DNA of 22,281 nt, from contig PMCA01000005.1 of the NCBI GenBank assembly GCA_003153935.1, positions 60,927-83,207 of the forward strand, given 5' to 3'. The position numbers were made by a program, and so were the translations under genes. Of the stretch, positions 16,892 through 21,435 are shown in pieces. Under the pieces are notes generated by a model. The model had not been told where the DNA came from. It was given only the letters and a program-made list of their open reading frames with translations, and made no database searches. This DNA is from Elusimicrobiota bacterium (GTDB lineage: Bacteria; CAYTYR01; UBA6262). Numbering within the stretch: the stretch's first letter is position 1; every line of letters begins with the position of its first letter.

Positions 16892-16910
16892 TAGAAGGAG
16901 TATGTTGAAG

Positions 16911-18170
16911 ATGGGAATGACAATAACCGAAAAGATACTTGCCGCGCACTGCGGCCAAAGGGAAGTGCATCCCGGCGACCTCATCCAGGCCAAAGTAGAC
17001 ATCGCCCTGGGCAATGACGTCACTGCGCCTATCGCCATCAGCGAATTCAAGAAAGCCGGCGGTAAAAAGGTGTTCGATAAGAACAAAGTGGTGCTGGTGC
17101 CGGATCATTTCACTCCCTGCAAGGATATAAAATCAGCCGAGCAGGTAAAAATACTGCGCGAATTCGCCAAAGAGCAGAAGCTTAAATATTACTTCGAAGT
17201 CGGACAGATGGGCGTGGAACACGCCCTACTGCCAGAGCAGGGTATCGTTTTGTCCGGTCAGCTGATCATCGGCGCGGATTCGCATACCTGCACCTACGGC
17301 GCCTTGGGCGCGTTCTCCACCGGCGTCGGCTCCACCGATCTGGCCGCGGCCATGATCACCGGCGAATGCTGGTTCAAAGTCCCGGAGGCGATGAAGTTCA
17401 TTTATAATGGTAAACTGCCCAAATGGGTCGGCGGCAAGGACCTGATACTTTACACTATCGGCGATATTGGTGTGGACGGGGCGCTTTACCGTTCTATGGA
17501 GTTCGCTGGGGATACTATTTCGGCTCTGCCGATGTCTGATCGTTTCTCCATGTGCAACATGGCTATCGAGGCTGGCGGCAAGAACGGCATTATCGCGCCG
17601 GATGATACTACCATTAAGTATGTAGAAAAGGTAGCCAAAGAGCCATATGACACTTACGAGAGCGACAAAGACGCCAAGTATGTGGAAACTAAAGAATATG
17701 ATGTTTCCAAGCTAGAGCCGATGGTGGCTTTCCCTCACCTGCCGAGCAACGTTAAGCCGATCTCCAAGGTAGGCAATGTATTGATCGACCAGGTAGTGAT
17801 CGGTTCCTGCACTAACGGCCGCATCGAGGACCTGCGGTTGGCCGCTCAGGTGATTAAAGGTAAGAAAGTTCACAAATATATCCGTTTGATCGTCATCCCA
17901 GCAACTCAGCAAATCTGGCAGGAAGCGATGGATGAGGGTCTGTTCAAGATATTCATGGATGCCGGAGCGGCGATATCTACGCCGACCTGCGGGCCGTGTC
18001 TTGGCGGGCATATGGGCATATTGGCCAAAGGCGAAAGAGCCGTAGCGACTACCAACAGGAATTTTGTGGGCAGGATGGGGGATCCGGGCAGTGAAGTGTA
18101 TCTCTCCAACCCCGCCGTCGCCGCAGCCTCCGCCGTCCTCGGCAAGATAGCGAGTCCAGAGGAGTTATAA
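16911..18170 (+). CDS. leuC: 3-isopropylmalate dehydratase large subunit
   Basis: The 419-residue subunit, with LeuD, isomerises 2- to 3-isopropylmalate and can also process citramalate. The three [4Fe-4S] ligands are Cys300 (GSCTNGR), Cys360 and Cys363 (TCGPCLGG). I chose ATG 16911 because the AAGGAG at 16895-16900 is ten bases upstream; an in-frame ATG at 16902 sits only one base after that site. Unusually, leuD does not follow directly: four unrelated genes and about 2.4 kb separate the two subunits. Confidence 0.94.
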
Positions 18171-18213: not shown

Positions 18214-18432
18214 ATGTTGACAGTAATTGTATTAACTTTGCTTTCGATATGCGTGATCAGGATTTTCAGTTTTGTTGAATCATGGTTGTGGCGGGTTATC
18301 TGGTTGGCGGTGGCGTTCTATGCCGTATTTGGACGCACATTCCCGGGTGGGGCCTTTGTGGTCCCGCTTGCTATAATGATTGCGTTCTCTTTGAAGGAAA
18401 CCATGGAGGACCATGGTATCAAATGGAAATGA
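18214..18432 (+). CDS. Small hypothetical membrane protein
   Basis: This 72-residue frame encodes two hydrophobic segments, about residues 2-19 and 27-60 with a small FGRTFPGG break, ending in a charged KETMEDHGIKWK tail. It lies between leuC and the DUF3795-like gene on the same strand, with a 12-base gap to the next start. The ribosome-binding site is weak (a GGAT at some distance from the ATG). I do not recognise a family. Coding is supported by the clean hydrophobic pattern and by filling a gap that would otherwise be empty. Confidence 0.5.
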   Translation: MLTVIVLTLLSICVIRIFSFVESWLWRVIWLAVAFYAVFGRTFPGGAFVVPLAIMIAFSLKETMEDHGIKWK

Positions 18433-18444
18433 AGGAAGTTTGTC

Positions 18445-18795
18445 GTGAAAGAGATCGTAGCAGATAGGCAATTGGTGGCGTATTGCGGGCTTTACTGCGG
18501 GGCGTGTAAGAAATATTTAGCCGAGAAATGTCCCGGCTGCCACAAGAACAAGAAAGCTTCCTGGTGCGCGGTGCGAAAATGCGCCAAGGAAAACAACTTT
18601 TATAGCTGCGCTGATTGCCGGTTGTATAGTAATATAATGGAATGCGGCAAGTTCAATAATTTCTTTTCCAAGGTGTTCAAGGTTCTGTTCAAGTCTGACC
18701 GCCAGGCCTGCATTCAGTTGATCAAGGACAAGGGTTATGTCGCTTTTGCCCAGGACATGGCCGCCAAAAAGGTTATGACTTTAAAAGCAAAATAG
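18445..18795 (+). CDS. Cysteine-rich DUF3795-like protein
   Basis: The 116-residue product has ten cysteines in its first 67 residues: 14, 18, 21, 29, 32, 41, 46, 55, 58 and 67, including YCGLYCGACKKYL and CPGCHKN. This matches the DUF3795 family, small proteins thought to bind zinc or another metal, with no settled function. The C-terminal 45 residues are basic and helical. The start is GTG 18445 behind GAAGGAAG (18431-18438). It sits in the block inserted between leuC and leuD and has no evident link to leucine synthesis. Confidence 0.75.
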   Translation: MKEIVADRQLVAYCGLYCGACKKYLAEKCPGCHKNKKASWCAVRKCAKENNFYSCADCRLYSNIMECGKFNNFFSKVFKVLFKSDRQACIQLIKDKGYVAFAQDMAAKKVMTLKAK

Positions 18796-18804
18796 GGGGG
18801 AAGG

Positions 18805-19635
18805 GTGAAAATTAAATCCTGGGTGATGACTTTGGCGCTTCTCACTGTTTGTTTAGCTGGTTTTTCGTATTTGTACGCCGACGATGAGGGATTTATTGGC
18901 GTCGATAATGCTAATGAAGAGCAAACGGTTGATTTGGGCAACAGGTTCTCTTTGGGCATTTGGGGTGGCTATTCCCAGATTAATATGAAAGATCTTAACA
19001 CCTATATAGATTATGAAAACGTCAAGTTTTACAGTGATGCTGGCAGTGATTATAAATATGATAAACCGAAAAATGCCATTGAAGCGGGATTGGACCTGAA
19101 TTATAAAATCACTCCTAATTTAAAAATAGGGCCTCGGGTGAGTTATATTACGGCTTCAGCCAAGAACGTTGTCTCTCTTGCGCCTGATAACTTCCAGAAA
19201 TACGAGGAGACGGACAAATATGATATGACCCTTTTGCCTATACTCATAGGCGGCGAATATTTTATTAAATACAGCGACAGAATGTCCTATAACTGTAAGT
19301 TGTACCTGGGATATGGGCTGGCCAGTATGAAAATAACCTACGATTCCAGCTATGAATCAAGTCTTGATCCTGATACCAATTACACTGATTCTACAGAGTC
19401 AAATTGGAAGGGCTCTAATTTTGTCGGCGAAGCTTCGATAGGCGGGGATGTCGCGATAAGCTCCGGGGTCTCTCTTGGCCTGGATCTGGGGTATAGATAC
19501 GCTAAGATCAAGAAGCTGAAATCCGACGCAGATAGTGATCTGGGGGGTATAGTTTTTGAAGATGAATTCGGCAAGGCCATTCCTTTGGATTTTAGCGGTC
19601 CGACCGCTGCTATTCGCGTCAATTTTATGTTTTAG
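18805..19635 (+). CDS. Candidate outer-membrane beta-barrel protein, copy 1
   Basis: The 276-residue product has a signal peptide (1-25, MKIKSW start, cut near LYA) and a mature part full of alternating strands, such as FSLGIWGGY, LDLNYKITP, IGPRVSY, LYLGYGLAS and LGLDLGYRY. It ends AAIRVNFMF with the terminal Phe expected of barrels inserted by the Bam system. The start is GTG 18805 behind a G-rich GGGGGGAAGG. It resembles small OmpA/OmpW-size porin-like proteins, but I cannot name a family. The next gene is a diverged paralogue, about half identical by eye with the same strand order. Confidence 0.75.
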   Translation: MKIKSWVMTLALLTVCLAGFSYLYADDEGFIGVDNANEEQTVDLGNRFSLGIWGGYSQINMKDLNTYIDYENVKFYSDAGSDYKYDKPKNAIEAGLDLNYKITPNLKIGPRVSYITASAKNVVSLAPDNFQKYEETDKYDMTLLPILIGGEYFIKYSDRMSYNCKLYLGYGLASMKITYDSSYESSLDPDTNYTDSTESNWKGSNFVGEASIGGDVAISSGVSLGLDLGYRYAKIKKLKSDADSDLGGIVFEDEFGKAIPLDFSGPTAAIRVNFMF

Positions 19636-19639
19636 TTCG

Positions 19640-19709
19640 GTAACAATATTCGGGAGGATTAATAATGAAATTGAAAGGCAAAGTGTGGAAGTTCAGGGAT
19701 AACATCAAT
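19640..19709 (+). repeat. Direct repeat copy 1 (duplicated leuD 5' end)
   Basis: These 70 bases match 20549-20618 without gaps, with six mismatches by hand alignment. They contain an intergenic stretch, the GGGAGGA ribosome-binding site, the ATG at 19665 and 15 codons equal to the leuD start (one Lys-to-Arg change). Similarity stops after AACATCAAT. Confidence 0.9.
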
Positions 19710-20543
19710 GCCTGGGGGATTTGTTTTGCATTACTGGCAGTTAGTTTAGCCGGTATTTCTTATTTGTATGCCGCTGACGACAGCTTTTTTAATGAAAACA
19801 ATACCACTGAAGAGCAGACAGTTACCCTGGATAACAACCATAGATATAGCCTAAGCGTTTGGGGTAGATATTCCATGCTCAATATGAAGTCTTTTAACGA
19901 TGATGTGGAATATTATTACGCAGATTATGTCCCGGCTCCAACCTATGATAAACCTAAAAACGGTTACGAAGTGGGCCTGGACCTGGGCTATAAGATCACC
20001 CCTAATTTAAGGATAGGCCCGAGAGTAAGTTATCTTATGGTTTCGGCCAAGAACGTTTACACGGACTCAGATAATACTTCCATGGGTAGTGGGTATTATT
20101 GGACGTACGAAGAAAAACAGGAATACCATATGACGCTTATCCCCATACTTTTGGGCGGCGAATATTTCACCAAATATAACGATAAATTTTCCTATAATTT
20201 TAAGTTATACCTGGGATATGGACTGGCCAGGATGAAATTAAATACTGGCTATGGCTTAGATTCAAACTATTATTCCCCGGATAGCTGGTCGGGAAGCTCA
20301 ACCTGGAAGGGCTCTGGCTTTGTCGGCGAGACCTCCGTTGGGGGAGAGATGGCTTTAAATTCCAGAGTCTCCCTAGGTATGGATTTAGGCTATAGACATG
20401 CCAATATCAAAGAAATGAAATTATCCGAGTCAGATTATGAAATCTCGACCGACCAGCAGATATGGAAGGACCATACCGGCCAGGTAATTCCTTTTGATTT
20501 TAGCGGCCCGATTGCTGCCATTCGCGTTAATTTTGCATTCTAA
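19665..20543 (+). CDS. Candidate outer-membrane beta-barrel protein, copy 2, with LeuD-derived N-terminus
   Basis: This 292-residue paralogue of the preceding barrel shares its YDKPKN, LGYKITPNL, IGPRVSY, ILLGGEYF, KLYLGYGLA and C-terminal DFSGPIAAIRVNFAF segments. Its first 15 residues, [15 protein letters not shown], are not barrel sequence: they equal the start of LeuD at 20574 except one Lys-to-Arg change. From Trp17 on it aligns with Trp6 of copy 1, so the LeuD piece replaced the original MKIKS start and now forms a long basic signal-peptide n-region before AWGICFALLAVSLAG. No other Met lies before the cleavage site, so this start is the one used. Translation is therefore driven by a copy of the leuD ribosome-binding site. 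Whether export still works with the longer n-region is not known. Confidence 0.82.
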   Translation: MKLKGKVWKFRDNINAWGICFALLAVSLAGISYLYAADDSFFNENNTTEEQTVTLDNNHRYSLSVWGRYSMLNMKSFNDDVEYYYADYVPAPTYDKPKNGYEVGLDLGYKITPNLRIGPRVSYLMVSAKNVYTDSDNTSMGSGYYWTYEEKQEYHMTLIPILLGGEYFTKYNDKFSYNFKLYLGYGLARMKLNTGYGLDSNYYSPDSWSGSSTWKGSGFVGETSVGGEMALNSRVSLGMDLGYRHANIKEMKLSESDYEISTDQQIWKDHTGQVIPFDFSGPIAAIRVNFAF

Positions 20544-20548
20544 GTTTA

Positions 20549-20618
20549 GTAACAATATACAGGAGGATCAATAATGAAGTTGAAGGGCAAAGTGTGGAAG
20601 TTCAAGGATAACATCAAT
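20549..20618 (+). repeat. Direct repeat copy 2 (leuD ribosome-binding site and first 15 codons)
   Basis: This is the original partner of 19640-19709. The pair lies 909 bases apart in the same orientation and brackets the barrel copy 2 body, so recombination between them would delete that gene and leave one intact leuD start. Confidence 0.9.
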
Positions 20619-21062
20619 ACGGATGAGATCATACCGGCCAGGTATTTGAATACCTTTGACGAGCAGGAGCTGGCTAAGCATTGCATGGAGGACGCGGACA
20701 AGGATTTCCCCAAAAAGGTAAAAAGGGGCGATATCATCGTAGCCGGCAAGAACTTTGGCTGCGGTTCTTCGCGCGAGCATGCGCCGATCTGTCTTAAAGG
20801 CGCCGGCATCTCCTGCGTTATCGCGGAAACTTTCGCGCGGATATTCTACCGCAATGCCATAAATATAGGTTTGCCGATCCTGGAGAGCGCGGAAGCCAGC
20901 AAAGATATCAAGGAAGGCGATACTATTGAAGTGGATCTCGATAACGGCAAGATCAAAAATACAACCCAGAACAAAATATACACCGCGCAGGCTTTCCCGG
21001 AGTTCATGCAGGAGCTGATCAACGCTGGCGGCCTGATGGAGTACGTAAAGAAAAAAACATAG
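20574..21062 (+). CDS. leuD: 3-isopropylmalate dehydratase small subunit
   Basis: The 162-residue subunit has the family start [20 protein letters not shown] (about 6-25) and the substrate-binding [11 protein letters not shown] near residues 61-71. Its length fits the short, archaeal-like class of LeuD. It pairs with LeuC to isomerise isopropylmalate and probably citramalate, given CimA in the same cluster. The start ATG lies behind AGGAGG. The first 15 codons and the preceding 25 bases are repeated upstream at 19640-19709 as the start of a barrel gene. The complete LeuD is intact and is the likely source of that copy. Confidence 0.94.
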
Positions 21063-21114: not shown

Positions 21115-21435
21115 ATGAAGAAATTTAATATCGAAGAGAATGTTTTTTTGCTGGTTTTTGGACTTATTTTCGGCATCTTCCATTTCCAGTTCGTGATCAG
21201 GCTGATATATTTCCATCCCCTGGAAGGCATCCCGGAGAATTTTGCCCTGATCTCTTATGACGCGCCTCTTTACTTTCTCTGGCAGAGCCTGAAGATCAAT
21301 GCGCCTATAGCGCTGACCAACCTGGCTTTTTCCGTTCTAGGGACGTTGATGTATGTAGGTTTTGGCGCCTTGATCGGTTCGGTGGTGGATAAGGTTATCA
21401 AGGATATTTCCAAATTACCCGCGGATAAACAGTAG
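21115..21435 (+). CDS. Small hypothetical membrane protein between leuD and leuB
   Basis: The 106-residue product has a hydrophobic segment near residues 10-32 and a second at about 67-90 (LTNLAFSVLGTLMYVGFGALIG), with a KVIKDISKLPADKQ tail. A GGGGGGCGGAG precedes the ATG. I recognise no family. It lies within the leucine gene run, so it is probably co-transcribed with leuD and leuB. Confidence 0.6.
   Translation: MKKFNIEENVFLLVFGLIFGIFHFQFVIRLIYFHPLEGIPENFALISYDAPLYFLWQSLKINAPIALTNLAFSVLGTLMYVGFGALIGSVVDKVIKDISKLPADKQ

Follow-up and report, generated by a model that had tools for sequence, protein, structure and literature searches.

Fusion of genes to new expression signals by tandem duplication has been well documented, both for the his genes of Salmonella (Anderson and Roth 1978, cited in PMC11111574) and for citT of Escherichia coli (PMC5918244). 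In the E. coli long-term evolution experiment, the duplication placed a second citT copy behind the start region of another gene, and it also yielded a truncated rnk-citG fusion open reading frame at the joint (PMC5918244). The Salmonella his fusions, as far as the citing source presents them, likewise couple a gene to foreign expression signals through a duplication joint.

Here we describe a locus in the leucine operon of an uncultured bacterium, where a second copy of a predicted outer-membrane barrel gene lies behind the start region of leuD, and where the joint also consists of a fusion reading frame. This is a clear natural example of a known route to chimeric genes, namely gene fusion by tandem duplication. 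It differs from the rnk-citG/citT case in that a promoter was captured there and the fusion reading frame was a by-product upstream of citT, whereas here the fusion reading frame is the retained gene. The captured part in the present locus includes the initiation site and the N-terminus, and the event, to judge from sequence divergence, is old and persistent. While the Salmonella his fusions belong to a laboratory system according to what the citing source conveys (PMC11111574), the present pair is natural, long-diverged and found in a sparsely sampled lineage. A limited literature search revealed no exact published precedent for natural start capture with an N-terminal graft.

The repeated leuD start

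The window, by which we mean the whole analysed stretch of 22,281 nucleotides, is gap-free and flanked by two NN scaffold gaps. The genes of interest are arranged in the order leuC, a frame of 72 amino acids, a DUF3795 gene, barrel copy 1, barrel copy 2 and leuD. leuC (16902..18170), which encodes the large subunit of 3-isopropylmalate dehydratase, forms the upstream edge of a variable interval. It is followed by the 72-residue frame (18214-18432) and by the DUF3795 gene (18445..18795; PF12675, 28.2 bits with a cut-off of 22.6), which is the upstream neighbour of barrel copy 1 (18805..19635). Next come the fusion gene that contains barrel copy 2 (19665..20543) and an intact leuD (20574..21062) for the small subunit of the same dehydratase (TIGR02084, 266.8 bits with a cut-off of 245.85). 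leuC, the DUF3795 gene, both barrel genes and leuD all lie on the plus strand, as do the repeated segments and the junction described below. At the far left of the window, positions 1 to ~1955 have a GC content of 0.64-0.67, compared to about 0.5 in the remainder, and the join lies inside a threonine-synthase-like gene at the conserved motif FKDRGMTMA. Across the NN gap immediately to the left of the window, the 5' part of a thrC-like gene with a GC content of 0.5 terminates at this motif, too. The first ~1.95 kb of the window are probably a chimeric or contaminant assembly piece.

A preliminary description had reported that the 5' end of leuD is copied at the start of the second barrel gene. 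This repeat is real: positions 19640-19709 and 20549-20618 can be aligned without gaps over 70 bases and differ at exactly six of them (19650, 19652, 19660, 19670, 19676 and 19696 in the numbering of the first segment). A repeat finder delivered a longer version of 76 nt with 89% identity (19634-19709 versus 20543-20618), and the ungapped local score of the pair was 52, as compared to 7-11 in 20 shuffles. The repeat spans the Shine-Dalgarno (SD) sequence (GGGAGGAT / AGGAGGAT), the ATG and 15 codons of leuD. Three base changes separate the leader of the fusion gene from leuD codons 1-15, two of them silent and one a replacement (K11R). The match stops at AACATCAAT (position 19709), from where on the fusion gene consists of barrel sequence and reads GCC TGG GGG ATT, where leuD reads ACG GAT GAG. 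An alignment also bore out the reported pairing of Trp17 of the fusion with Trp6 of the upstream paralogue.

The homology is not limited to the leuD start. The similarity of the two barrel ends continues through the intergenic region to leuD codon 15 in one 142-bp match of 84.5% identity. The barrel 3' end, the intergenic region and the leuD start are thus present twice in this order, the second time with leuD itself. The source copy of the intergenic region, SD sequence, ATG and first 15 leuD codons occupies 20544..20618, and its counterpart with the copied region between barrel and leuD is found at 19636..19709. No other direct repeat within 10 kb that copies a gene start in a similar manner was found in ~303 kb of stretches of the genome to which the window belongs. 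The idea that leuD starts form a dispersed repeat family was rejected, since this genome has only two substantial copies.

Predicted barrel proteins and the fusion start

The two barrel copies are paralogues with 56-58% amino-acid identity (56-57% in pairwise searches, 58% in the alignment). Copy 1 passes the cut-off of the OMP_b-brl family of outer-membrane beta-barrels (PF13505; 30.4 versus 28.7 bits) and copy 2 lies at this cut-off, with 28.4 bits by hmmscan and 31.2 bits in the genome search. With this family both copies share a signal-peptide-like N-terminus and a C-terminal Phe, and no named subfamily reached its cut-off. A PDB profile search gave no meaningful match, and a structure model based on two sequences predicted strands, but without confidence (mean pLDDT 32.9).

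Over 266 aligned codons, the barrel copies show a dN of 0.30 and a dS of 1.62, which corresponds to a dN/dS of about 0.19. Judging from these values, both barrels have apparently long been subject to purifying selection. These data also bear on the view that the repeat results from a misassembly, and that only a single barrel gene is located between leuC and leuD. It could be held in favour of this view that the leftmost ~1.95 kb of this contig look chimeric. However, about one in three aligned bases differs between the barrel copies, with indels and the aforementioned low dN/dS, so that neither a collapse nor a duplication during assembly accounts for the repeat. Moreover, this region has a uniform GC content and is located well inside a gap-free contig. 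We therefore regard a misassembly as improbable in the extreme.

Copy 1 starts at a GTG of its own and encodes its own signal peptide (MKIKSWVMTLALLTVCLAGFSYLYA). This GTG is located four codons past an in-frame stop (18793-18795), which fixes the start region of this gene. In contrast, the fusion gene of 292 codons (58% identity of its product to copy 1) combines leuD codons 1-15 with barrel copy 2, the latter beginning at about barrel codon 5. These 15 codons are all that was kept of leuD: an aconitase match is absent from the fusion, as is the catalytic swivel domain of LeuD (TIGR02084). In the first 66 codons of the fusion gene, in-frame ATG, GTG or TTG codons are found at residues 1, 3, 7 and 34 only, and every possible start ahead of the hydrophobic h-region is consequently derived from leuD. 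This supports the proposal that the fusion gene would use the initiation signals of leuD, as its reading frame offers no usable in-frame start ahead of the predicted signal-peptide core outside the leuD copy.

Alternatively, the leuD-like leader might be an annotation decoy, and copy 2 might be a pseudogene or translated from elsewhere. Yet, all 292 codons form one open frame, the leader shares this frame and has a well-placed SD sequence and ATG, and ATG, GTG or TTG codons are absent between the leader and the h-region. Together with the dN/dS of about 0.19, this makes such a decoy highly improbable.

Copy 2 has retained the features of a signal peptide. Its n-region has a net charge of +4 versus +2 in copy 1, and its h-region ICFALLAVSLA has a hydropathy of 2.73 versus 2.58. 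The h-region is followed by LYA-ADD, which would be a plausible signal-peptidase site. SD pairing is alike in both copies, and the structure predicted near the start (-30 to +45) is weak in copy 2 with -3.0 kcal/mol versus -15.6 kcal/mol in copy 1. Sec-dependent export tolerates a longer basic n-region. The product of copy 2 would presumably be exported with the new n-region in use, possibly to some benefit.

The leuC-leuD interval in related genomes

The comparison comprised five genomes of the phylum, namely that of the window (G000), three of a sister genus (G001-G003) and one of another family (G004). Across these genomes, leuD-type starts are not common on unrelated barrel genes, as only leuD and the fusion gene carry them. 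On leuD itself, the start is conserved in all five genomes. At the protein level it is the same in G001 and G003, it has one change in G002, and it is still recognisable in G004. This sequence pattern indicates that the start is ancestral to leuD. The leuD sequences of G001-G003 are 85-91% identical to that of the window, and leuC is about 90% identical in the two genomes where it was found (90.5% in G003 and 89.5% in G001). The synonymous sites of leuD codons 1-15 are saturated between the genera, and these codons are therefore not strongly constrained there.

No barrel gene was found in G001-G003, and an arrangement with just one barrel was seen in none of the five genomes. No relative of the barrel outside the genome of the window was found in the phylum, in two scans of the genome_contigs set, or in the viral_contigs and plasmids sets. 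In the sister genus, the leuC-leuD interval holds a gene for a zeta-toxin-like kinase (PF06414) and other short genes, as well as a DUF3795 gene in G003. The interval is compact in G004, with about 0.28 kb from leuC to leuD and one small frame in between. Since the barrel is absent from the relatives, it was probably acquired within the lineage of the window, where it entered an interval that readily takes up genes.

Several further features were observed. Directly 3' of leuD, the family to which the genome of the window belongs encodes a small predicted membrane protein without Pfam match (window 21115-21435; L014:6398-6733; L015:13022-13363), which is present in two copies in G003. In all three relatives, the first 12-18 codons of the DUF3795 gene recur as isolated copies within the leuC-leuD interval (L014:10244-10191, L014:9395-9359, L015:15777-15733 and L016:8766-8707, all on the minus strand), and G003 has two such start fragments plus a full DUF3795 gene. 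In addition, there is a dispersed hairpin repeat, consisting of GCGACCNTAGGGAGTCCGCC followed by a pairing GGCGGA arm (L063-L072, e.g. L069:1501 and L065:1070). With up to one mismatch allowed, there are 11 copies of it in G001, 11 in G003, two in G002 and one in the genome of the window. Two of its copies lie directly 3' of DUF3795 start fragments.

One may ask whether the interval is a hotspot in which the starts of resident genes are repeatedly copied beside inserted genes (leuD codons 1-15 in one case, 12- to 18-codon DUF3795 starts in the other), perhaps by one shared recombination process that gives new genes their start regions. We consider this quite unlikely. The DUF3795 fragments are short remnants that adjoin the hairpin repeat in two places, and no paralogous gene was seen to be fused to them.

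Proposed origin and divergence of the duplicated unit

The observations can best be explained as follows, and we give this explanation as a whole a probability of roughly 0.78. An outer-membrane beta-barrel gene would have been gained between leuC and leuD in the lineage of the window. A unit of ~0.9 kb, reaching from about barrel codon 5 to about leuD codon 15, would then have been duplicated in tandem, and the new joint would have fused the leuD SD sequence and first 15 codons in frame to the signal-peptide core of the barrel. Translation of copy 2 would start at the leuD-derived SD sequence and ATG, with the basic 15-residue stretch from leuD serving as an extended n-region of the signal peptide. 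Both copies would later have been retained under purifying selection while diverging. The repeated tract at the joint (barrel 3' end, intergenic region and leader) would have been kept more alike, probably by copy-to-copy conversion or by constraint on initiation.

A tandem duplication with the breakpoints previously proposed, after about leuD codon 15 and near barrel codon 5, is largely supported. It accounts for the fact that copy 1 has a native start while copy 2 has that of leuD, and for the doubled order of barrel end, intergenic region and leuD start. Moreover, the donor (leuD) and the recipient (barrel copy 1) are both intact and stand in tandem order with the fusion. The accompanying claim of short microhomology at the join was confirmed in part. 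In the junction zone (19698..19715), 9 of 15 bases are identical when the sequences are placed in register according to the downstream homology; this is better than 99.4% of random pairings, 0.6% of which equal 9 of 15, but it amounts to partial microhomology only. A microhomology-assisted joint is plausible, and because leuD and the barrel start share this partial similarity, the breakpoint cannot be placed to the base. From the arrangement of the sequences, we infer an origin by one single duplication event. With a barrel dS of ~1.6, this event is old by the measure of synonymous divergence.

Equal divergence across the duplicated unit would be predicted if one event had been followed by neither conversion nor constraint, although such uniformity is the expectation for one undisturbed event rather than a strict requirement. 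The observed divergence is not uniform, which counts against an undisturbed history. In the leader, 2 silent changes were found among 6.5 synonymous sites and 1 replacement among 38.5 sites, and about 5 of 23 intergenic sites outside the SD sequence differ (~0.22 in a hand count). The proportion of synonymous differences (pS) is 0.31 in the leader and 0.35 in barrel codons 271-290, as compared to 0.66 in the barrel. When barrel 3' end, intergenic region and leader are taken jointly, 12 of ~44 synonymous or intergenic sites differ versus 107 of ~154 synonymous sites in the other parts of the barrel (Fisher P about 1e-6, for a tract that was partly picked post hoc). The synonymous sites of the leader taken alone give P = 0.05. 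Thus, the event would be old, but the divergence of the leader and of the barrel 3' end is far lower, which implies that something further happened. The low divergence of the joint tract suggests later homogenisation or conversion, a constraint on initiation, or a younger leader, and the data fit any of the three.

A younger leader would fit an origin in two steps, in which a copy of the intergenic region and leuD codons 1-15 later took the place of the native start of the second gene in an old, diverged tandem pair of barrels. The lower divergence of the leader (pS 0.31) and of the intergenic region (~0.22) relative to the barrel (pS 0.66) speaks for this course of events, as does the finding that the first 15 codons of leuD are not strongly constrained, with synonymous sites saturated between genera. 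However, divergence is also lower (pS 0.35) in the 20 aligned barrel codons that precede the final two, a finding that a replacement of the start alone leaves unexplained, and conversion or constraint is preferred over a later start replacement for this reason. Furthermore, the two-step course requires an extra breakpoint in the short region past copy 1, whereas one tandem duplication yields the same map in one step, and the leader has few synonymous sites (6.5). On balance, we consider an origin in two steps unlikely, though it has more to commend it than the other alternatives, and we favour the single tandem duplication with the joint tract kept alike afterwards.

In this natural genome, the joint of a chimeric gene made by duplication is still readable, with donor, recipient and product side by side. 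The locus shows how an exported protein could acquire a start site and an extended n-region from the gene for a cytoplasmic enzyme, without any new sequence. It therefore provides a concrete case for asking whether the duplication-fusion products known from laboratory evolution persist in nature.
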